This document shows, piece after piece, positions 1 to 18,534 of a DNA stretch of 20,694 nt. The position numbers and the translations under genes are program-made. The stretch lies in the IMG/VR virus record IMGVR_UViG_3300013094_000347, positions 1 through 20,694 of that record. One strand, 5' to 3'. The stretch's first letter is position 1, and every line of letters starts with the position of its first letter. The notes below the pieces were generated by a model that did no database searches, was not told the DNA's origin, and worked only from the letters and a program-made list of their open reading frames with translations. This DNA is from a virus.

Positions 1-520
1 AATAGCCAGAATATCCACTAATGCCGCTACCCGAATATCCAGAATATCCTGATACGCCAGAACCAGAGTAACCACTAATACCAGAATAGCCACTAAATCC
101 AGAAATACCACTATAGCCTGATAATCCATTTTGTCCACTTATTCCTGAGTAGCCGCTATATCCCGATATTCCGCTACCAGAATAACCGCTGATTCCAGAA
201 AATCCAGAATATCCACTTGTACCTGATTGTCCGACTGCGCCAGAATAGCCTGATATACCGCTAAATCCTGAGTAACCAGAAACACCACTACCAGAATAGC
301 CTGAGAATCCACTAAAACCGCTTATGCCGCTAAATCCAGACCAACCCGATACACCAGACCCAGAATATCCAGAAAACCCGCTATAACCGCTTACACCGCT
401 TCCGCTAAAGCCAGATATACCAGAGTAACCAGAATAACCAGAAATGCCTGAGAAACCGCTGTAACCAGAAATACCAGAATAACCCGAAAAACCAGAATAA
501 CCAGATGTACCTGGTGGCCC
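1..520 (-). repeat. Gly-X-Ser coding repeat, distal block
   Basis: This degenerate 9-bp repeat (GGN TAY/TTY/ATH TCN/AGY on the minus strand) encodes Gly-Tyr-Ser, Gly-Phe-Ser and Gly-Ile-Ser triplets. It runs from the GPPG step to the window edge. Codons vary from unit to unit, so the protein pattern is kept better than the DNA pattern. Several GSG dipeptide steps and one GAVGQSG step break the triplet phase. Confidence 0.9.
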
Positions 521-1276
521 TACAATTTCACCTACATTATTCCAAGTCGTGCCAGACCATACATACAGATCGCCATTGGAAGAAACAATGTAAGCATCGT
601 TTGGCAAATTCCCAACTAAAGGTAAATCGGCTGGTGTTGCAACCGTACCTTTAATATTAATTGATGTACCTTGTTGGCCGCTATATCCGCTAAATCCAGA
701 ATAACCAGAAACACCTGATCCGCTGTAGCCACTTATGCCGCTATATCCAGAATAGCCTGATATACCGCTAAACCCCGAATATCCGCTAATACCGCTGTAA
801 CCAGAATATCCAGAAACACCAGAACCAGAATATCCACTAAAACCTGACCATCCAGAAGTACCACTAAATCCTGACCAGCCACTTACACCTGATCCACTAA
901 AGCCAGATTGACCAGAAAATCCAGAATAGCCAGATATACCAGATTGACCTACTGCGCCACTATATCCAGAAATTCCAGAAAAACCGCTATACCCTGATAT
1001 ACCGCTACCAGAATAACCAGAATATCCGCTAATTCCAGAAAAACCAGAATAACCAGAATAACCCGAATATCCTGATTTACCAGAATAACCAAATCCAGAT
1101 GCGCCACTATAGCCAGAATAACCTGAGTACCCGCTTAATCCTTGTGGGCCAACTAAACCACGATCAATTTTAATGGTTTGATTAGGTGGAGTTGTAACTT
1201 TAACTGTCTGCCGTGCTTGTGGCACTACAGACACGGACACATTATTTTGATCCGTTACATTAACTTTTATACCCAT
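1..1276 (-). CDS. Collagen-like Gly-X-Ser repeat tail fibre protein, C-terminus beyond window
   Basis: The frame stays open from an ATG at 1276 to the left edge, giving 425 codons without a stop, so the C-terminus lies outside the window. Residues 1-42 are non-repetitive (beginning MGIKVNVTDQNN). A GPQG step at about residue 43 starts a long run of Gly-X-Ser triplets in which X is mostly Tyr, Phe or Ile, sometimes Trp. Residues about 203-252 form a non-repeat module containing the segments DAYIVSSNGDLYVW and TTWNNVG, which is typical of modules inserted in phage collagen-like fibres. GPPGTSGYSG then starts a second triplet block that reaches the edge. GGAG lies 7 nt before the ATG, and the upstream gene stops 2 nt away. 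Its place at the end of the tail operon fits a fibre or virion surface protein. The triple-helix role is inferred from the Gly periodicity; the Pro-poor, Tyr-rich triplets are atypical of collagen. Confidence 0.85.
   Translation of the reverse strand, partial: MGIKVNVTDQNNVSVSVVPQARQTVKVTTPPNQTIKIDRGLVGPQGLSGYSGYSGYSGASGFGYSGKSGYSGYSGYSGFSGISGYSGYSGSGISGYSGFSGISGYSGAVGQSGISGYSGFSGQSGFSGSGVSGWSGFSGTSGWSGFSGYSGSGVSGYSGYSGISGYSGFSGISGYSGYSGISGYSGSGVSGYSGFSGYSGQQGTSINIKGTVATPADLPLVGNLPNDAYIVSSNGDLYVWSGTTWNNVGEIVGPPGTSGYSGFSGYSGISGYSGFSGISGYSGYSGISGFSGSGVSGYSGFSGYSGSGVSGWSGFSGISGFSGFSGYSGSGVSGYSGFSGISGYSGAVGQSGTSGYSGFSGISGYSGSGISGYSGYSGISGQNGLSGYSGISGFSGYSGISGYSGSGVSGYSGYSGSGISGYSGY
678..1150 (-). 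repeat. Gly-X-Ser coding repeat, proximal block
   Basis: This block has the same degenerate 9-bp coding repeat as the block at 1-520. It covers residues about 43-200 and ends at a GQQG step. It contains GSGIS/GSGVS phase breaks and a GAVGQSG element that also occurs in the other block, which suggests past duplication of a higher-order unit. Confidence 0.9.
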
Positions 1277-3162: not shown

Positions 3163-6100
3163 ACTGCCCCATTTCTATTAAATGATTGCTCTACTAGGAT
3201 ATTAAGGTTACTTGTTGGTGTTTGTGACAATGTATAGCTTCCAGTTGTTACAGAATAATCCACAGTTTCTAATAATAATACTCCATTATTATATAGATTA
3301 AATGCTAATGGATTGAAAGTAAACGGATAAGTTGCTTGACCAGGAATTGTATAAACATCAGTATTTGATGGGTTGCCGTTTGGCTGACCTTGATTATTAT
3401 CTGTCCATTGAATAACTTGCAAATCACCAGAAACGGCATTTACAAAACTAATAGTCTGATCAGATATATTATAGTCTTGAGCATTAATTACTGTGCCATT
3501 TAGGAATAACAACTCATTACCGCTAACTAGCGTAAATCCTGATGCGGTGTATGATCCAGTATTACTTAATGTGTCTGAATTTCTGCTAAAACTATTATAG
3601 GTAGTGCTGGTTGACACGGCCACAGAAGCCATAGAAATGATTGTAATAATATCGTTTAAATTAGCCCCAGTTACTAAAGTAATGTTTCCAGTTGAGCCAC
3701 CAGTATCGGTATATTCGCTAGGATCAAGCAATAAACCATTTTGGAATACTAAACAGTTTCCAGATAAATATTCTGTTCCCCGTGTTACATGGAAAACGGT
3801 TTGACCGCTGGAAGCATCAAAAGCGGTCATAGTGTAATTAAATGTATCTGGTGGCACAAATCCTACAACACGGCCATATACATCCACAGTCAATGTAGCA
3901 ACGCTAGATGTATAAGTTTGCGCCCCGCCAGGGAAAGTCAATAATTGCGCCAATGATGCAACTACTTGACCTTGTGGGTTGTTGTTTACCGCAATTTCTC
4001 CAGTACCTACCGTAGTAGTACCAGTCTGAATAAGCTGACCAGTACGGGCATTAAGATCAATAATGTTGTAACCATCTTCCAACCCTTGCCAAATAGTAGG
4101 ATCGTAATTAGGGTCAGTTGGTACAAACAATGCAGAACCCGCTGATGGTGCGGCATTACCAGTAGCAAAACTAATAAAGTTATTGCCACGATTGCAAAAT
4201 AACAAATAATTTAATGTGCCAGAGCTACCAAATACAGGATTTGCTGGATACCAGATGTAATCTGTTGGCGTTAAATCAAATGATGGAATATTAGTATTTG
4301 CAATACCATAATAAGTTGCCCCTCTAGGATTTGAAGTAAATCCTGTACCAGTTTGACTTGTAGCATAAGCAATACTTAAATAGCGTTCTGCATATTGTTG
4401 GAATGTTGTTGGCCGCCATGTAAATAAACTGCTTGGCGGGCTATATAGTGATGTTTCTACAGAATTCACCATTCTGGTAAAGAAATACCAATTACCAGCA
4501 GAAATTGTTGATAGCGTTACTGGTGGTAATGCAACTGAATTACCATAGGGTATACCATTAGGTTGCACGGCAGTTGTGCCAGCAAATATAAGCTGTGATG
4601 GAGATGGATTGGAATAAGCCGAATACCAAATTTCTGCATATTGCACAATGCCATTTGTAGAACTTTTTATATCTACTTGGAATGATGGATTTGCCGCATT
4701 TGGTAATGAATTAGCAATAACTGGGGCTGGTATAGTGCCAAAGCTGTTAGGTGCTGGCAACCCGCTATTGGGCTGTGGGTTATATTGCGTAACGCTGGCA
4801 TCGTTATAAACCGATGGGTCATAAACCAATAATGTCAATGCCACAGAAATTGTGCCGTCTGGCGCAAAGTTTTGCTCTACTTTGATAACTCTAAATAGTT
4901 TTGCCACAAAACCATAATTGGCATTGGTCACGGTAACAATATCGCCAGCTTCTAATTCCAAACCAATATAGTTTATGGTGCAAGTAATTTGCAAATCCAT
5001 TCGTGCCGCTTTTAAGAATCGTGTAGCTAAAAGCTGGGCTTGCACATCGTTATTAACCAATGGCAGTTGAATGGTTTGGGCGTTTTGTGGCTCATTAGGG
5101 TATAGCAATGATGGCGCAACTAAAGCCAAATTAACGGTGCTAGTGTTAAATGAACTATTTAGGCTAATGTCTGGAAATTGGCATTGTGCAATGTTATAGG
5201 TATTTGAAATATCTAAAGATACCACTTGAATAGCAGAAACCATATTGCTATCGTTAATGTCCATAGCCACGCTGTAAGTTGGCTGATTAACAATAACTGA
5301 CCAAACTCCGTAAATCTCATTGTATTTAAGCAAACAATCGCAACAATTCACAATACTTTGCACATTGTCTAATATGTTTTTAGTGGTATCGATTGCGCCA
5401 TTAAAGGTAAATCTAGGCTGTGTTTCTGGTACGCCAAGATAATTATTAAATGTAATAGTTTGGGCGCAATAAGTATTTAGCGCAGTTAAACTGGCAGTAT
5501 CAATTTGTGATGCTGGAATTGCCCCGCCATATACGGTACTAGTCAAATAATCATAAATAACATCGCCTGGTGCTATTCGCGAATTAATGACTTCAAATTG
5601 TGTTTGAGCAATCGATGTAACACCAGCATTGGCGTTATAAGTTAAATGCACAATAGCAAAAGCGCAGTTGGTCATTAACTTACTATTATCCCATGTATAA
5701 GTAAGTCCAGGTGATTGCATTACTGTAATGGCAGATTGACTACTATTTACAGGATTATTTGATCCGTTGCTATACAAATATATATTTAGATACCCATTTA
5801 CTTTGGTATCAACTAATCCTGTGGCTGGATCAACCAATCCTGTAACTGCGGTACTAGAGCTTTGACCAGGATTAACCGCATACATTTCGTTGCCAACTAT
5901 TACTGATGGATCAATCGCCTTATTAAATACGATTGTATTAGTTGTGGTATTGATGCCGCTTACGGTGTAATAAATTGGTGAGCCAGAGTTAGCAAATGAA
6001 ACCAATAATCCAGAAGTGACGGGTATAGATAATGTGCCAGAGTAAGTAATAGTATTGCCAGAAATAGTGGCAACGCTAACACTCGAATCAGTATAAGTAA

Positions 6101-6497
6101 GGCCGCTAAACAAGCACAACTTACCACCATAATAGATATTGCCATAAGCAATGGAATCTGTGCCATTGCCTGTAACTTCGCAGAGTGAAAGAACATAATA
6201 TAAATTTTGATTATCAGAAGTAATTGAAAGATCGGTAATTGTGCCGCCAATATAACAGTTGCCATAAACGATTGGCAGTTTGTTATTTGTTGATGGTTGA
6301 ATCTGTAAATTAGTGCCAGTATTTAACTGAGTTGTTCCGTTGCTAACTGGTGGTTTTGGTGCGGTTAAGGCAGACACAATAGATGATGCAGTCATGGTTA
6401 GACCCATCATCACTAATTCTGGTTGCCCTGTTACTACGCCAACAATGGCAATAACAGCACCAACAATCGCACCTAAAACGCCACCACCGCCACCCAT
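3159..6497 (-). CDS. J: Tail tip / host-specificity protein J-like, about 1112 aa
   Basis: This is a large central tail-tip protein. I prefer the ATG at 6497 (MGGGGGVLGAIVG): it is 1 nt after the upstream stop and has GGAAG 8 nt before it. An ATG at 6536 would add 13 residues and overlap the upstream gene by 38 nt. Domains in order are a Gly-rich hydrophobic N-terminus (residues 1-45), an LPIVYGNCYIGGTI segment typical of phage J-like tip proteins, and a tail-hub region including LLATRFLKAARMDLQ and LEAGDIVTVTNANYGF (about 480-540). Fn3-like and beta domains follow. Last come three related modules with an '(F/Y)xNGxxLxxxDY' core near residues 915, 1000 and 1072. J-like proteins close the tail tube and carry fibres. 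The downstream fibre starts at its stop codon, which fits the beta modules being a fibre-attachment stalk. Confidence 0.85.
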   Translation of the reverse strand: MGGGGGVLGAIVGAVIAIVGVVTGQPELVMMGLTMTASSIVSALTAPKPPVSNGTTQLNTGTNLQIQPSTNNKLPIVYGNCYIGGTITDLSITSDNQNLYYVLSLCEVTGNGTDSIAYGNIYYGGKLCLFSGLTYTDSSVSVATISGNTITYSGTLSIPVTSGLLVSFANSGSPIYYTVSGINTTTNTIVFNKAIDPSVIVGNEMYAVNPGQSSSTAVTGLVDPATGLVDTKVNGYLNIYLYSNGSNNPVNSSQSAITVMQSPGLTYTWDNSKLMTNCAFAIVHLTYNANAGVTSIAQTQFEVINSRIAPGDVIYDYLTSTVYGGAIPASQIDTASLTALNTYCAQTITFNNYLGVPETQPRFTFNGAIDTTKNILDNVQSIVNCCDCLLKYNEIYGVWSVIVNQPTYSVAMDINDSNMVSAIQVVSLDISNTYNIAQCQFPDISLNSSFNTSTVNLALVAPSLLYPNEPQNAQTIQLPLVNNDVQAQLLATRFLKAARMDLQITCTINYIGLELEAGDIVTVTNANYGFVAKLFRVIKVEQNFAPDGTISVALTLLVYDPSVYNDASVTQYNPQPNSGLPAPNSFGTIPAPVIANSLPNAANPSFQVDIKSSTNGIVQYAEIWYSAYSNPSPSQLIFAGTTAVQPNGIPYGNSVALPPVTLSTISAGNWYFFTRMVNSVETSLYSPPSSLFTWRPTTFQQYAERYLSIAYATSQTGTGFTSNPRGATYYGIANTNIPSFDLTPTDYIWYPANPVFGSSGTLNYLLFCNRGNNFISFATGNAAPSAGSALFVPTDPNYDPTIWQGLEDGYNIIDLNARTGQLIQTGTTTVGTGEIAVNNNPQGQVVASLAQLLTFPGGAQTYTSSVATLTVDVYGRVVGFVPPDTFNYTMTAFDASSGQTVFHVTRGTEYLSGNCLVFQNGLLLDPSEYTDTGGSTGNITLVTGANLNDIITIISMASVAVSTSTTYNSFSRNSDTLSNTGSYTASGFTLVSGNELLFLNGTVINAQDYNISDQTISFVNAVSGDLQVIQWTDNNQGQPNGNPSNTDVYTIPGQATYPFTFNPLAFNLYNNGVLLLETVDYSVTTGSYTLSQTPTSNLNILVEQSFNRNGAV

Positions 6498-6498
6498 G

Positions 6499-6921
6499 CT
6501 ATATCTTCCAAGTGTTTTGTAACTTAGTTGCACCATATCTACTGAAATCAGAATCAGTAAAACAGGAAAAATGCGCTTCTTTTATTTCGCCAGTTTTCTT
6601 CATTTCTTTACCAATTTCAATAAACTTCTTAAACAGCTTTAATGATGTTTTGTCGTTTGTGCTATGCCACATAATCTCATGTAGTGAATATTCCCCTTCA
6701 ATAAAAAAACACGGGGCTTTCATTGCAACTAAAACACCACTTAAATCTTTTGCAATTAATATAAATCCAGCACCAGCCAGAATCATACTTAATTGCTTAC
6801 CTACATAATCCCTTGACCACTTTGCTTCATCTTTTAATATTTCAAATCGATGTGTTTGGCAAAAGTGTTCTAATATCTTGTAAATTGCATCAAAATCAAA
6901 TTTATTTGCGTACCGTATCAT
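6499..6921 (-). CDS. GNAT-like acetyltransferase in tail operon, 140 aa
   Basis: The fold order resembles the GNAT family: an N-terminal MIRYANKFDFDAIYKILEHF helix, a GFILIAKDLSGVLVAMKA beta-hairpin, and a HEIMWHS strand followed by a long Lys-rich helix. It ends in SRYGATKLQNTWKI, like the C-terminal 'yGF' motif. GNAT-like genes are often found beside the tail-tip gene of siphophages. The acetyl-CoA pyrophosphate loop (Q/R-x-x-G-x-G/A) is not visible: the expected place reads STNDKTSLKLF. Catalytic activity is therefore uncertain and a non-catalytic structural role is possible. The start overlaps the upstream stop by 4 nt and the stop is 1 nt from the tip gene, so it is made together with the tail tip. 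Confidence 0.7.
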   Translation of the reverse strand: MIRYANKFDFDAIYKILEHFCQTHRFEILKDEAKWSRDYVGKQLSMILAGAGFILIAKDLSGVLVAMKAPCFFIEGEYSLHEIMWHSTNDKTSLKLFKKFIEIGKEMKKTGEIKEAHFSCFTDSDFSRYGATKLQNTWKI

Positions 6922-7511
6922 TGCTTTCCAAAAGCATAATATATTGTCGATATAGTGGCCACTCGATTCATTGATGTATCGCCAGGGGTGAAATATTCCC
7001 AGCTTGAATCATTAGTAAATCGACCAACCGTTCTGTTTTGTAAAATCATTTGAATGTTTGCGGCACTAACTGTTACTGTACCTACATACATACGCACTTC
7101 TTCCATCCATTGTTCACCAATGTTGAAAGTATTGATAAATCCATAGAAATACTGATAAAGACCGCCAGCACCACCAGATGTTATTAAACTGCCATCAGTA
7201 TTGAAAAAACCTTTCCACATGGTAATTTGTGCGCCTTTTAAATTACCATTTAGCACCACGCCCAAAAGGGCTGTATCAATACCGACCAAAGTAATAGTAG
7301 TTTGATTGGCGGTAGATTTAATATCTCGCTGTACCTTGCCAATACCAATTAATTGACCTAATCCATCAAAAGGTTGTGAATCCACCGCTGACACGGTAAT
7401 AGCCGTTGGCGCAGTAGAAAACCTATATTCTGTAGATGGCGTAACAATACGCACAAAATCCGCATATCGAATATTGTTAGTATTTTGTATTGGTGCTATT
7501 ACTTGGCTCAT
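6918..7511 (-). CDS. Tail tip/hub protein, 197 aa (DUF2163-like)
   Basis: This beta-rich protein lies between the distal-tail-like gene and the GNAT/J genes, the usual place of tail-hub or tip-complex proteins. An early RYADFVRIVTPSTEYRFSTA strand pair, a central VQRDIKSTANQTTITLVGID segment and a C-terminal NRTVGRFTNDSSWEYFTPGD motif recall DUF2163/DUF1833-type tip proteins. The resemblance of the last motif is the best clue, and the family name is tentative. It probably forms part of the ring between tail tube and J. Both ends overlap neighbours by 4 nt, so expression is translationally coupled. No enzyme motif or Cys cluster is visible, which argues against an NlpC/P60 or Fe-S function. 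Confidence 0.6.
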   Translation of the reverse strand: MSQVIAPIQNTNNIRYADFVRIVTPSTEYRFSTAPTAITVSAVDSQPFDGLGQLIGIGKVQRDIKSTANQTTITLVGIDTALLGVVLNGNLKGAQITMWKGFFNTDGSLITSGGAGGLYQYFYGFINTFNIGEQWMEEVRMYVGTVTVSAANIQMILQNRTVGRFTNDSSWEYFTPGDTSMNRVATISTIYYAFGKQ

Positions 7512-13002: not shown

Positions 13003-13671
13003 TTATAGCACCAGCGGTTTATATGGGCGTAAAAGTTGCTCTACGCCAAATGGCAACTTAGCCAACTGTCCTGTTGTGGTGTCGCTACGGTTGTTATAAA
13101 GATGGGTTAAAAGCAATAAGCCAGCTTGCTGAATAACTGGGTAACTAGCCAAAGGGTTAGCGGCCAAAGTATAGGTAACAACAATCGGATTACTAATAAA
13201 CTGGTTTACTTCGCTTGGAATACCACTAACAATGACTTTATTGCCAGTAGGATCATAAAAATACTGATCTGACGATATAAGGGTAAATACTGGTGTTGTG
13301 TCGCTTGTATAGTAACCAACGGTATTAATGACCACGCCAGGTATAGACCCATTGTTTTGTCCGACTTCTGGCAAATCAAGCATAACTTGTGTGCCACTCA
13401 TGCCATTAAACGCCCCGTAATAGACTTTATAACTTACGGTGAATATGGACATACCCAAATAGTCCTCGATGGCCATACGGGTTGCCAATTCAAGGCTAAA
13501 TAGATAGTCTGCTTGGCTGGTATCGCCAACCAAATTAAGCTGTTGTAGGATTTGATCCAAACTTAGCCAAGAACTGCTTATATCTCGGCTAGTTTGCTCA
13601 ATCTTTTCATAGCTAAAGGGGTTACGGACTGTACCTAAGTACGGCCCGTTGGTATAACTATCTAATGGCAT
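13003..13671 (-). CDS. Head-tail connector (HK97 gp6 / phiE125 gp8-like), 222 aa
   Basis: This is a connector or adaptor that docks on the portal. The N-terminal half has SSWLSLDQILQQLNLVGD and the helix-rich DYLFSLELATRMAIEDYLGM, typical of gp6-like connectors. It is followed by a strand-rich part with a V-x-L-D-LPEVG motif and a VVINTVGYYT strand. A final helix is QQAGLLLLTHLYNNR and the end is LPFGVEQLLRPYKPLVL, which closely follows the family ending. It begins 7 nt after the second capsid gene, with AAGG upstream, and is directly followed by the head-closure gene. The length is slightly above the usual 150-200 aa. Confidence 0.8.
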   Translation of the reverse strand: MPLDSYTNGPYLGTVRNPFSYEKIEQTSRDISSSWLSLDQILQQLNLVGDTSQADYLFSLELATRMAIEDYLGMSIFTVSYKVYYGAFNGMSGTQVMLDLPEVGQNNGSIPGVVINTVGYYTSDTTPVFTLISSDQYFYDPTGNKVIVSGIPSEVNQFISNPIVVTYTLAANPLASYPVIQQAGLLLLTHLYNNRSDTTTGQLAKLPFGVEQLLRPYKPLVL

Positions 13672-13678
13672 ATTGGCC

Positions 13679-14710
13679 TTATGATTCTAAACGGACACCC
13701 GCAAATACATCACGAATTGTTGAGCATACACGCTTTTCAGCATACAGGGTTACTGTACCTGGTTGTGTTTGCTCTAAACGCTGGATGCTAAATTCTTCGT
13801 GATCCACGATAGTTACAAACTTATCCCAGTTAGCCAAATAGATTGGGAAGTTACCACTACCAACCACTTGCATATATGGGTTAGGGATTACAGGGAAACC
13901 AAATACATGAGCAACTGCGCCACCATCAGAATCGCCAACTTCAACAAACAATGGCTGACCAGTAGAACTTGTCAACTCACGCAATGCCAAAATGGTATTT
14001 GGGTGCATATGCCAAGAAGTACCTGGCAAACTCCAGTATTGGGCTGGCAATGCAGATGCTAAAGATGCAATGTCGTTATAAACGATTGTGCCGCCAGTAG
14101 CGGTGCTAACAGTCTTAACTGTATGCAAACCGTTTGTTGCGCCAGAACCGCTTGTACCAAATGCGGCAGTTGAACCGCTTGGATAGTAGTTTAAGCCACG
14201 CAAACCATTGGTTGCACCAGTTGATGTTGTGCCAGAACCAGCTTGATCATTGTTCTGGATCATAGACAATGCTTCTTGTTGGCTAAACTCAAGCATCAAA
14301 TCGCCAACAACTGCTTCATCAAGGTTATTAATATCATCCATTGCGGCAGTACGGATTGGTAACTGCGCTGTAATGGCTTGTAAAGGTAATTGCCAGAATG
14401 ATGTGGCAATGTTTGGAGTACCAGAGTTTACATTAACTGGATAGCCCCACGGATTCGTTGCATTTGTAGCGTTACCAGTCTTAACAACAAACGCTTCATT
14501 TGAACCAATCGTAGTAATTTCTCGACTTCCCATACGCAATGGGTTAGCCATACGCAACGATGCAAAAGCATCATCATAAATAACACGACCACCAACCCCA
14601 GAGCCAGAACCCTGTAGCCCAGCGGCTTCTTTTAAATTTACCTTTACCGAATCACCATTTTTATCGGTTAAGGCTGATTTGATTGCTTCAAGGATTAGTT
14701 GATTTTTCAT
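13679..14710 (-). CDS. Second HK97-fold major capsid paralogue lacking delta domain, 343 aa
   Basis: This is a full HK97-like capsid protein. Residues about 40-160 contain GGRVIYDDAFASLRMANPLR, a WGYPVN motif, then QLPIRTAAMDDI and LEFSQQEALSMIQNNDQ. It shares this set closely with the neighbouring larger capsid protein, including 'PIRTAA(L/M)DDI' and 'M.EFSQQE.LSMI.NNDQ'. Later GLRGLN, QYWSL and the C-terminal TLYAEKRVCS also match. It differs in having only a short, Gly-rich N-terminal stretch of about 35 residues and no coiled-coil delta domain. It is therefore a divergent paralogue that is not truncated in the fold. Possible roles are vertex pentamers (as T4 gp24 beside gp23), a minor shell subunit or a second shell protein. 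GGAAGAA lies before the ATG, with a hairpin 22 nt upstream. Confidence 0.85.
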   Translation of the reverse strand: MKNQLILEAIKSALTDKNGDSVKVNLKEAAGLQGSGSGVGGRVIYDDAFASLRMANPLRMGSREITTIGSNEAFVVKTGNATNATNPWGYPVNVNSGTPNIATSFWQLPLQAITAQLPIRTAAMDDINNLDEAVVGDLMLEFSQQEALSMIQNNDQAGSGTTSTGATNGLRGLNYYPSGSTAAFGTSGSGATNGLHTVKTVSTATGGTIVYNDIASLASALPAQYWSLPGTSWHMHPNTILALRELTSSTGQPLFVEVGDSDGGAVAHVFGFPVIPNPYMQVVGSGNFPIYLANWDKFVTIVDHEEFSIQRLEQTQPGTVTLYAEKRVCSTIRDVFAGVRLES

Positions 14711-14732
14711 ATTTCTTCCAAAAGATTAAGTT

Positions 14733-14753
14733 GGGGGGACTTTTGATCCCCCC
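14733..14753 (-). terminator. G6/C6 stem-loop between the two capsid genes
   Basis: The minus-strand RNA reads GGGGGGATCAAAAGTCCCCCC: a 7-bp stem (six G-C and one A-U) with a 7-nt loop. It starts 7 nt after the tandem TAATAA stop of the first capsid gene. No U-tract follows, so it is more likely a partial terminator, an mRNA 3'-end stabiliser or a processing barrier than an efficient terminator. Confidence 0.6.
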
Positions 14754-14760
14754 GCCTTTA

Positions 14761-16116
14761 TTACGCTGTTGCTGTTGCGGTAGAACGGTAAGCGATGATA
14801 GAGAGTGGGTCTACATTTGATGTAGCCAAACGCTTCTCACCGTAGAATGTGATATAACCAGGCAATGTCTGGTCATATCTACGCAATACCATGTTCAAAC
14901 GATCAACAATGGTATGTCCACGCTGGAAGTCACCGAAATACATTGGGAACAAGTTAGCCGCTGTGTTACCAGAGAATTCACTTGGATTATCAACATATTT
15001 GTTAACTACCACATCAAAGCCTAACATACGGCCAACGATACCGTCAGCATCGCCTGGGTGCATACGCTCAAAAATTGGTGTGCCATTGTTATCTTTCAAG
15101 CCACGGATTTGTGCCAAGAAGATTGGGTTAACCAAGAATTTCGCTGTTGGTGTCCAGTATTGTTGTGGCAAGTTGTAGATGAAGTTAATGATGTCTTGAT
15201 AAGTCACATTAGCCGCACCAACTGTATTGCCGTTAGTAGTGATCTGGTCATAAACAGCCAAGCTGTTCAAACCGTTGCTAGTAGCAACACCAGAAGTACC
15301 GAAAGCACCAGTAGTGATTGTGCCGCCAGTATAAGTACCGTTAGCACCATAGTTAGCGTATTGATTCAAACCACGCAAACCCTGTGTACCACCGTATGTG
15401 TTAGGTGAATCAGTTTGATCGTTGTTCTTGATCATTGATAGACCTTCTTGCTGGCTAAATTCCATCAACATATCGTCAACCACATTGGCTTCCAAACCAT
15501 CGATGTCATCGAGTGCCGCAGTACGGATTGGGAACTGGACATTCAAATCTTGTAGAACTAATTGCCAAATAACTGTAGATTCAGTTGTTGGGTTAGGGCC
15601 ACTAGATGTGTTGTTGTTTACTGGATAACCCCAGAAACTTCCAGAATTGCCCGTTTTTGCTCTAAATTGATATGTAGAACCATCAGTAGTTACATTACGG
15701 GAAAGACCACGCATAGGGTTAATCAAACGCAATGTGTGGAATACTGGATCGTAGGCTGTACGACCACCGATGTTGTAACCGCCACCAGTCAATGAAGAAC
15801 TTTCAGTTAAGTATGCTTGATATTGTGATTCATCTTCAAACATCTTTAATTCTTTTTCCATCGAACCTTTTTTAGCAAACTTTTTAAGTTGCTCGCGAAC
15901 CATCTTGTTTACATCTTCCTTGATGGATTTAGCTGGCTTGATGATTGATGGTGCTGTATTGATTTCAGCAACACGGGCTTTAATGGTTTCTAATTTCTCA
16001 TCCATTTCAGCTTTAGCGGCTTCAATAGCGGCAACTGCTTCGGTTTTTACTTCTTGAATTTTAGATTCGTTTGATGCTTCGATAGCATCCAACTTTTCAA
16101 TAATTTTGTCAGACAT
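14761..16116 (-). CDS. HK97-fold major capsid protein with N-terminal delta domain, 451 aa
   Basis: This is the main shell protein. Residues 1-105 are a charged, Lys/Glu/Ala-rich helical region (including ESKIQEVKTEAVAAIEAAK), the delta/scaffold domain that HK97-type phages cleave at about residue 104. The fold begins at about 110 with SLTGGGYNIGGRTAYDPVFH. It continues with WGYPVN, QFPIRTAALDDIDG and MEFSQQEGLSMIKNNDQ (to about residue 232), then GLRGLN, QYWTPTAKFLVNP and a C-terminal TFYGEKRLATS. Cleavage is expected to be by the protease encoded directly upstream. AAGGAAA sits 8 nt before the ATG, overlapping the protease stop region, and the gene ends in two TAA codons. A paralogue without the delta domain follows. 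Confidence 0.92.
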   Translation of the reverse strand: MSDKIIEKLDAIEASNESKIQEVKTEAVAAIEAAKAEMDEKLETIKARVAEINTAPSIIKPAKSIKEDVNKMVREQLKKFAKKGSMEKELKMFEDESQYQAYLTESSSLTGGGYNIGGRTAYDPVFHTLRLINPMRGLSRNVTTDGSTYQFRAKTGNSGSFWGYPVNNNTSSGPNPTTESTVIWQLVLQDLNVQFPIRTAALDDIDGLEANVVDDMLMEFSQQEGLSMIKNNDQTDSPNTYGGTQGLRGLNQYANYGANGTYTGGTITTGAFGTSGVATSNGLNSLAVYDQITTNGNTVGAANVTYQDIINFIYNLPQQYWTPTAKFLVNPIFLAQIRGLKDNNGTPIFERMHPGDADGIVGRMLGFDVVVNKYVDNPSEFSGNTAANLFPMYFGDFQRGHTIVDRLNMVLRRYDQTLPGYITFYGEKRLATSNVDPLSIIAYRSTATATA

Positions 16117-16125
16117 GATATTTCC

Positions 16126-16929
16126 TTATTTGATGCGTTTAGATAGTTGCTTCAATAATTCTCTTTCCTCAAGGGCTTTGAGAATTTCATCAGCTTCGTT
16201 TACCACCGCTTCCAACTCACTTGGTTGTGGTGTTTCTTTAACAACTTCCTTGCCAGCATCACGCTGTTCAAGAATTTTCTTAAAGACGGAAGATGCGGTG
16301 GTCGCACCTTTCTTGGACAGCCCAGCATCACGCAAGGTCTGCTCAACTATACGAGGATTCAAATGCCCTTCGGCATCAAAACACTCTAATCTTTGAATTT
16401 CGGCATTGGGATTGTTTGGGTACATAACCACAGACACTTCACGCAAGCCGCCTTTAGTAATTTGAAAATAGGCTTCTTCGTCATCATCGTTATCGTCATC
16501 CATTGGCTCACCATCGCCATCAACCCAACACGCTTCATCTGCGTATGCGCCAACGGAAACACCACCAAATAGATTAGGGGATGATTTTAATACTTCATAA
16601 AGGTCAGAACCAGTTGAAGTATTCATAAATAGATTGCCTTTAGCAACCATGCCATCTTTATCAAAGTTAAATTCATTCCATTGACCGACTGGCATACCCA
16701 TGTCGTTATGGTTTAAAAACATTGGTAATGGTTTACCCTCAGATTTAAACTGTTCTGCCCATTCAGCAAAGCCATCAGGCTGATAGTTAAATTTTCTACC
16801 GTCTGCGCCCTCACGCTTACCCCATGTAGTAACACGGGCAACAATATTGCCGCTAGGATTTTGGGATTCTTTGCCTTGTTTTTCTAGGCTTAGTTGTGCT
16901 TCGCAAACGACTGTCAGGTTTTGATTCAT
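16126..16929 (-). CDS. HK97-type prohead protease (S78), 267 aa
   Basis: This Ser protease cleaves the capsid delta domain during maturation. The likely catalytic triad is His74 in LNHNDMGMPVGQW, Ser125 in GGVSVGAYADE and Glu164 in GGLREVSVVMYPNNP, in the family's order and local sequence. Between Ser and Glu lies an acidic insert (about residues 135-153, with DDDNDDDEE). The C-terminal 80 residues (KKGATTASSVFKKIL, then a Glu-rich coiled coil ending LLKQLSKRIK) are outside the catalytic core and could be a scaffold-like region. An in-frame TAA directly before ATG 16929 fixes the upstream limit, with GGGA about 7 nt before it. It sits between portal and capsid genes, as in HK97. Confidence 0.9.
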   Translation of the reverse strand: MNQNLTVVCEAQLSLEKQGKESQNPSGNIVARVTTWGKREGADGRKFNYQPDGFAEWAEQFKSEGKPLPMFLNHNDMGMPVGQWNEFNFDKDGMVAKGNLFMNTSTGSDLYEVLKSSPNLFGGVSVGAYADEACWVDGDGEPMDDDNDDDEEAYFQITKGGLREVSVVMYPNNPNAEIQRLECFDAEGHLNPRIVEQTLRDAGLSKKGATTASSVFKKILEQRDAGKEVVKETPQPSELEAVVNEADEILKALEERELLKQLSKRIK

Positions 16930-17050
16930 TTATAATCCCATCTTTAATCGAGTAATCGATGTCGTATATTATATGAGATTTTTTTGATTTTATCGGCAGT
17001 TTAGCATTAAACCGCCTAATCATTGAATCCAATCTATCTTTTATTGTCAT
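16853..17050 (-). CDS. Possible small basic protein between portal and protease, 65 aa
   Basis: The ATG overlaps the portal stop as TAATG, so it could be translated by reinitiation, but no SD is visible. The 65-aa product is strongly basic and begins MTIKDRLDSMIRRFNAKL, ending SRLRSTTKPRKTRQRIPKS. Its last 77 nt overlap the protease in another frame. I do not recognise it. The first 43 residues fill most of the 120-nt gap between portal and protease, which makes it plausible as a gene, but composition alone cannot separate it from a chance open frame. Confidence 0.35.
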   Translation of the reverse strand: MTIKDRLDSMIRRFNAKLPIKSKKSHIIYDIDYSIKDGIINESKPDSRLRSTTKPRKTRQRIPKS

Positions 17051-18534
17051 TAAGTTGTGCCAATATTCATTTTGCGGGTTTGATTGCCCCCGCCACCACC
17101 AGTATCTTGTGGGCTTGTGCCTGGAATAATTTTAGCTGTTTTCGATGTTACTGGTATATCTGTAGATGATAATTTTTGTGTATTAACGCCACCTAATTGA
17201 TCACCGCCATCAATTTTTGCAATATTCAAATATTCACGGGCTTCATTTGGGGTCATAATGCCACCAGCAACACCAGCATTAACAAAATTCATTTGGTCTA
17301 ATGCCGCACCCTTCAAGAAATCTTTAGTATCAAAACGAATTGCAAGGTTTGGATAACCTTTTAATAATCCCATTTTGAATTTTTGCTCAATATTAATAAT
17401 CATTGGGTACATGGTAGTTTTATAAAACTCATCCAATAATGTTTGAGTATTATTATATTTACCCATCTCCAAACCTAATAATTGTGCTGGTACTCCAAAC
17501 AATGCACAAATACGCTTAGTAGTTTGATCTTTTAATTTGCTGGCTTCGGCATCTTGCAATGTCAGCATATGGACTGGTGTGTAAGTCATGCCCTGATCTA
17601 GCAACATTCCTTGACCTGGCTTGCTTAAATCACTTGGGCGGCTACCAGTCATGCTAGACCATGCTTCTTTTAATCTGGCGGCAATTTCTTTAAATTTGCT
17701 ATCTGGAATTACTTGAGTTGTGCTAAAAATGCCAGATGGTTTTGCGCCATTTTGCATGACATAGTTAGCATACAAGTCAATATCAGTATCAAGTGCCACC
17801 AATTCAGTTGCCAAAATACCTTTGTTAAAACCAGCAGAACCTTGCCACGGTGCTTCGGTGCAATGTATTACCTGATAAGCGGCTAATGGCTCATCCTTGT
17901 TAAATCCGTATGTTGGTGTAGAAACACGGTATGTAGGATAACGGGCTGGGCTGGCTTGAACAGTAATTAAAGTTGCATCAAGGTTATATAACTCAATCGG
18001 GGTTTGGTTAGGGTCTTTTTGGTCTTTACGGTATAGCAATGTAAATACTTCACCCGCCAGGGAATACCATAATGCCCATTGATACCAAAACTCATATTGG
18101 TTTTGAAAGTTATTTGGTTCAGTTAATAGGTTTAATACTTGTTTTGCTTTGTTTTTATCCCGTGTGCCAGATTTATCAGACTTTAAACAATCCTCAAAAG
18201 TGCCATCATCGGTCTTATACATGACTGTTAATGAACATTGTGCCAATGCTCTAGCAATCATATTGGCGCATGACATCACCGTACTATTACGGGATAAAAC
18301 CGACATATCCACAACTCGACCCGCATTGGTGGCCGATGCTGTAGTTACATACAGTAATTGGAAGTTTGCGCCTTGTTGACCGCCTTGATTCTGGCGTAAT
18401 ATTTGGTTACCTAGCTGGGTTTGACCAAATAGCGTATTGTTTTCGTTAAAGTTTTGCACGGAAACTTCTGATGTTTGCACCTCATTTTTGGGCAAATTGT
18501 ATTTATCTTTATTGAATATATCTAACATTCCCAT
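17050..18534 (-). CDS. HK97-family portal protein, 494 aa
   Basis: The portal dodecamer is the DNA entry gate at one capsid vertex and nucleates head assembly. The protein has the family layout: an N-terminal LYVTTASATNAGRVVDMSVLSRNSTVMSC segment, an FWYQWALWYSLAGEVFTLLY core strand/helix region, and GFNKGILATELVALDTDIDLY. A late KRICALFGVPAQLLGLEMGK motif followed by YNNTQTLLDEFYKTTMYPMI (about residues 335-375) is characteristic of HK97-type portals. The C-terminal 40 residues are low complexity (TGGGGGNQTRK). Length is typical. AAGGGA lies about 8 nt before ATG 18534; an ATG two codons inside is an alternative. It follows the large terminase by 33 nt and precedes the prohead protease. Confidence 0.93.
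   Translation of the reverse strand: MGMLDIFNKDKYNLPKNEVQTSEVSVQNFNENNTLFGQTQLGNQILRQNQGGQQGANFQLLYVTTASATNAGRVVDMSVLSRNSTVMSCANMIARALAQCSLTVMYKTDDGTFEDCLKSDKSGTRDKNKAKQVLNLLTEPNNFQNQYEFWYQWALWYSLAGEVFTLLYRKDQKDPNQTPIELYNLDATLITVQASPARYPTYRVSTPTYGFNKDEPLAAYQVIHCTEAPWQGSAGFNKGILATELVALDTDIDLYANYVMQNGAKPSGIFSTTQVIPDSKFKEIAARLKEAWSSMTGSRPSDLSKPGQGMLLDQGMTYTPVHMLTLQDAEASKLKDQTTKRICALFGVPAQLLGLEMGKYNNTQTLLDEFYKTTMYPMIINIEQKFKMGLLKGYPNLAIRFDTKDFLKGAALDQMNFVNAGVAGGIMTPNEAREYLNIAKIDGGDQLGGVNTQKLSSTDIPVTSKTAKIIPGTSPQDTGGGGGNQTRKMNIGTT

Follow-up and report, generated by a model that had tools for sequence, protein, structure and literature searches.

Duplicated phage capsid genes are clearly described in two systems, T4 and SaPIbov5, in the literature covered here, outside which most subscription papers lie. 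In phage T4, the HK97-fold paralogs gp23 and gp24 carry a long pro-region on the hexamer protein and a short one on the vertex protein, so that gp23 loses 65 residues and gp24 only 10 (PMC9958956). T4 is a large prolate myovirus, and its two paralogs are only ~20% identical. The second system is HK97-type and uses a delta domain; the capsid homolog Ccm of SaPIbov5, which is satellite-encoded and retains an 87-residue delta region of its own, makes pentamers, and the phi12 capsid protein (CP) makes hexamers (PMC8569155). In HK97 and phage D3, a single delta-domain major capsid protein (MCP), encoded after the portal and protease genes, forms both hexamers and pentamers; HK97 contains 415 MCP copies (PMC12749128).

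Here we describe two tandem capsid genes, cap1 and cap2, in a 20,694-base IMG/VR virus record, referred to below as the window. Cap1 resembles HK97 gp5 and the D3 protein in its capsid fold, its delta domain and its place after portal and protease. The pair differs from that of T4 in that the delta domain lies within the MCP, the two proteins are 41% identical, and the genes stand in tandem with a hairpin between them; as in gp24-type vertex proteins, cap2 is a paralog of the MCP of the same phage, apparently through one duplication. Unlike Ccm and CP, cap1 and cap2 are both phage-encoded and cap2 has no delta domain. Methylophilaceae phage P19250A (38.7 kb) belongs to the same group, its cap1 (4600-5988) and cap2 (6066-7124) being ~61% and ~59% identical to those of the window over nearly their full length. 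Its cap2 is annotated only as a hypothetical protein, and we found no published description of the cap1/cap2 pair, nor a proteomic or structural study of any phage in the group.

Two HK97-fold proteins in one head operon

Head genes on the minus strand of the window run in the order TerS, TerL, portal, S78 protease, cap1, cap2, Ad1 and tail genes (Table 1). At the far end of the record (2-1276, minus strand), a collagen-like repeat protein (PF01391, E=1.2e-36) is open at the contig end and is probably a tail fibre.

Table 1. Features of the head operon in the window
Feature	Position	Strand	Evidence
Portal protein	17050..18534	-	PF04860, E=2.5e-61
S78-family prohead protease	16126..16929	-	PF04586, E=1e-9
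cap1, major capsid protein with HK97 fold and delta domain, 451 aa	14761..16116	-	PF05065, TIGR01554, codon bias
Delta (scaffold) domain, cap1 residues 1-105	15802..16116	-	Predicted helices; absent from cap2
Candidate cleavage motif L103-T104-E105 / S106, cap1	15802..15810	-	[LIMV]-x-E motif
GC-rich hairpin in the cap1-cap2 intergenic gap	14732..14754	-	Terminator-like in relatives
cap2, delta-less capsid paralog with HK97 fold, 343 aa	13679..14710	-	PF05065, E=6.4e-24
cap2 N-terminal leader, 28 residues, candidate pro-peptide	14627..14710	-	Helix 2-15; cap1 homology starts at its end
Candidate cleavage motif L26-K27-E28 / A29, cap2	14627..14635	-	Motif in 57/57 representatives; cleavage inferred
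Ad1 head-tail adaptor, invariably next after cap2	13003..13671	-	phrog_40, E=4.6e-10; conserved order

A sequence-only reading of this DNA had proposed two divergent HK97-fold capsid genes sharing several sequence blocks, and both open reading frames are present at the positions and lengths that it gave, as are the blocks that it quoted. BLASTP aligns the two proteins over 321 aa with E=4e-69, far beyond chance. Both exceed the curated cut-offs of PF05065 (Phage_capsid; E=2e-27 for cap1) and TIGR01554 (E=6.8e-34 for cap1) over the capsid core, and few strictly paralog-specific residues were found between them. In a Foldseek comparison, the AF2 model of cap2 (mean pLDDT 66.6) matches best the capsid of the Rhodobacter capsulatus GTA (E=2.4e-16, 6tb9) and, at E=8.3e-14, HK97 prohead I (8fqk). 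In sequence, too, the GTA capsid (6tb9/6tba) is the nearest relative with a solved structure (cap1, E=6.6e-9; cap2, E=7.8e-6), although the matched PDB entries hold one capsid protein, Rcc01687.

Because the cap1 model is poor (mean pLDDT 50.9), we used it for the N-terminal helices only; these are predicted, at low confidence, at residues 2-54, 65-82 and 96-107, making the first ~107 residues mostly helical. This agrees with the proposal of a ~105-residue helical delta domain in cap1 only. The cap2-specific N-terminus is a leader of ~28 residues with a short helix in the model and a conserved LxE motif at its end. It is therefore short, as had been claimed, but the glycine-rich stretch ascribed to it is common to both proteins (SLTGGGYNIGG / GLQGSGSGVGG).

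Conservation and distribution of the pair

We sampled 80 loci anchored on cap2 and 80 on cap1 (partly overlapping sets), together with three GTDB contigs and P19250A. The order protease-cap1-cap2-Ad1 is invariant in all 149 loci that are readable on both sides, a total that should not be equated with independent lineages because some loci lie on overlapping or near-identical contigs. In seven further loci a single capsid gene is seen with the contig end adjoining it, and none of the loci examined has room on both sides and lacks cap1 or cap2. Recurrence of the pair in these 149 loci, including the GTDB contigs and the isolate, rules out a single gene split by assembly. One GTDB MAG named Nitrosotalea, an archaeal name, holds a phage contig of this group, probably through a binning error (L085).

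Confirmed relatives in IMG/VR number 202 for cap2 and at least 522 for cap1. Among the 50,697 records of a phage collection, P19250A alone has a cap2 relative, and the layout is thus rare among isolates yet common in environmental contigs; the group that bears the pair is one of widespread, mostly freshwater bacterial viruses. A plasmid search gave no match, and phage Venkman was rejected as a relative because its head genes are different. Among 143 genomes from a single class, a survey for PF05065 genes in tandem gave matches in seven and listed no tandem pair, but says little about rarity since it missed the known cap2 in G001.

Origin of the two copies and selection on them

In a tree with four single-capsid phages as outgroup, each paralog forms one clade (support 83/97 for cap1 and 96/90 for cap2) with the outgroups outside (100/100), and one duplication therefore preceded the group. 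A single ancient duplication of a capsid gene, as the earlier reading had envisaged, is supported by this topology, although the position of the root is less secure than either clade because the outgroup branches are long. The outgroup capsid proteins (391-458 aa) have a long N-terminus, which makes loss of the delta domain from cap2 the simpler reading and suggests that this is what happened. There is no strong sign that recent gene conversion lies behind the shared blocks; the best 25-codon stretch in the window is 77% identical at the DNA level, as in several other loci.

Median omega values of 0.063 for cap1 and 0.084 for cap2 place both copies under strong purifying selection and rule out decay of either one. 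Cap2 is the faster-evolving copy, its mean column identity being 65% compared to 74% for cap1. A frame break near the 3' end of cap2 was seen in one locus (L103). These data bear on the idea that cap2 is simply a spare, or an alternative capsid used under some conditions, given that both proteins have the HK97 core and either could in principle form a shell. We regard such redundancy as highly improbable: the gene order is fixed over ~40% divergence with no loss, replacement or decay, and cap2 has no delta scaffold, nor was a separate scaffold gene seen in the head operon. Purifying selection on the full capsid core of cap2, and a fold that matches shell proteins, also make it improbable that cap2 is an internal protein or assembly factor acting only at the portal vertex or in the procapsid interior, even though the gene adjoins that of the adaptor in all loci and its product, having no delta domain, would be free of the scaffold core.

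A candidate maturation site common to both proteins

A motif of the form [LIMV]-x-E-[AS] stands just before GGR..YD, at the start of the homology between cap1 and cap2. Using a pattern that also accepted Q or D after E, we found this LxE-type motif in all cap2 proteins and in 56 of the 57 cap1 proteins of a representative set (57 loci at <90% cap2 identity); the remaining cap1 reads MKETG. The motif resembles the sites of the T4 prohead protease, and it may be a maturation site shared by cap1 and cap2. In the window ~105 residues precede it in cap1 and ~28 in cap2, giving cap2 a much shorter putative pro-region. These predicted cuts (105 and 28 residues) parallel the trimming of gp23 and gp24 (65 and 10). 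The S78 protease gene lies upstream of delta-bearing cap1; cap2 is the copy without that domain.

A hairpin and codon usage set cap1 apart from cap2

Between cap1 and cap2, 71 of 72 distinct loci have a stem of five or more GC pairs, and 63 have one of six or more; in 56 of these 63, a U tract (four or more U within nine bases) follows 3' of the stem. Stems with at least six GC pairs are found after portal in 0/56 loci, after protease in 0/59, after cap2 in 2/68 and after Ad1 in 0/79. The inner stems comprise 41 distinct sequences in which pairing is kept, and the changes are thus covarying and compensatory. The window's own hairpin (MFE -18.5 kcal/mol, z -2.6) may not terminate transcription, as it has no clear U tract. 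Any effect of the hairpin would not be specific to cap2 because expression of the adaptor and tail genes would drop too. The sole exception among the 72 loci (L093) has a 344-base HNH-endonuclease insert, the same as that in L022, where an HNH endonuclease gene (PF01844; L022:5654-5980) lies between cap1 and cap2 and the hairpin is displaced. In another locus (L119), 642 bases separate the two genes, and the ORF of the insert resembles a GIY-YIG endonuclease on visual inspection but has no Pfam match.

Codon usage was measured as the C-ending fraction in two-codon NNY families. This fraction is 0.49 in cap1 versus 0.34 in cap2, with cap1 higher in 54/57 loci. Portal, protease, Ad1 and the major tail protein gene resemble cap2 (~0.33-0.37), so that the bias is confined to cap1 within the operon genes compared, and codon bias is evidently a proxy that misses some many-copy proteins, since the major tail protein is not raised. 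Together with the hairpin, codon usage makes cap1 look like the high-output product and cap2 like a lower-output one. The two signals predict unequal amounts and so argue against the proposal that cap1 and cap2 are comparable partners in mixed capsomers throughout the shell, as does the faster evolution of cap2. Both proteins are intact and conserved, and would have similar mature sizes if cut at the motif (346 and 315 aa), but we consider such an arrangement quite improbable.

Proposed role of cap2

We propose that one icosahedral head is built from two HK97-fold shell proteins that are duplicates of a single capsid gene. Cap1, with its delta scaffold domain, would be abundant and build the hexamers; cap2, which would have lost the scaffold domain and kept a leader of ~28 residues, would be made at a lower level, either through attenuation of transcripts at the intergenic hairpin or through their stabilisation upstream of it. 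Pentamers of cap2 would then fill the eleven non-portal vertices, and the phage protease would probably trim both proteins after the LxE motif, before A or S. If the shell is T=7, as we assume by analogy with HK97, copy numbers would be ~55 for cap2 and ~360 for cap1. We put the probability of this explanation as a whole, from cap1 hexamers and minor cap2 vertex pentamers to hairpin attenuation and trimming of both, at roughly 0.6. There is about an even chance that this HK97-type siphovirus shell divides scaffold and shell roles by position, with delta-bearing subunits in the hexamers and delta-less ones at the vertices, that it arose separately from T4 gp24, and that the hairpin sets the output.

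The assignment of cap2 to the vertices draws on the analogy with T4 gp24 and SaPIbov5 Ccm, and a vertex pentamer is the most likely form of a minor shell subunit that is a paralog with the shell fold, is never lost, is apparently made in smaller amounts and has no scaffold domain. The specialised role suggested for cap2 by the sequence-only reading thereby gains indirect support, the hairpin and codon usage giving cap2 its lower-output look, and the vertex pentamer itself comes from the two precedents; an alternate shell made of cap2 alone, which that reading had also entertained, finds no support. A separate vertex protein is not forced on such phages because one MCP serves both positions in HK97 and D3. 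The scaffold domains that surround regular penton vertices in HK97 prohead I are not in substantial contact with the subunits of the penton (PMC10275583), with the counterpoint that pentons do carry scaffold density.

Low predicted output would also suit a minor subunit that is not exclusive to vertices and is instead incorporated into hexamers or adjusts curvature and head size, and Ccm does enter the shell and change capsid size (PMC8569155). Heads of a single size need no such factor, however, and the retention of cap2 in all 149 loci argues for an essential fixed position; we therefore think this alternative unlikely.

Two loci have a cap2 with an extra N-terminal domain of ~100 residues that matches phrog_2859 (L127:2816-4141 and L137:5691-7013). 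In isolates this family occurs in large genes (~800 aa) that carry a major capsid protein annotation (S-CBS1 and Roseobacter CRP phages), which we read as protease-capsid fusions, and also in prohead protease genes. Its presence on cap2 is in keeping with a head protein whose N-terminus faces the interior and can be removed.

Implications

By analogy with T4 and SaPIbov5, cap1 and cap2 would be a variant of the dedicated-vertex arrangement that is established in few other systems, the vertex step being the part that we infer. If this is correct, the pair would constitute a naturally occurring HK97-type capsid with two components, and thereby a test of the open question in HK97-type assembly of whether a scaffold domain is needed in pentamers. 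It would also mean that a separate vertex protein has evolved more than once.
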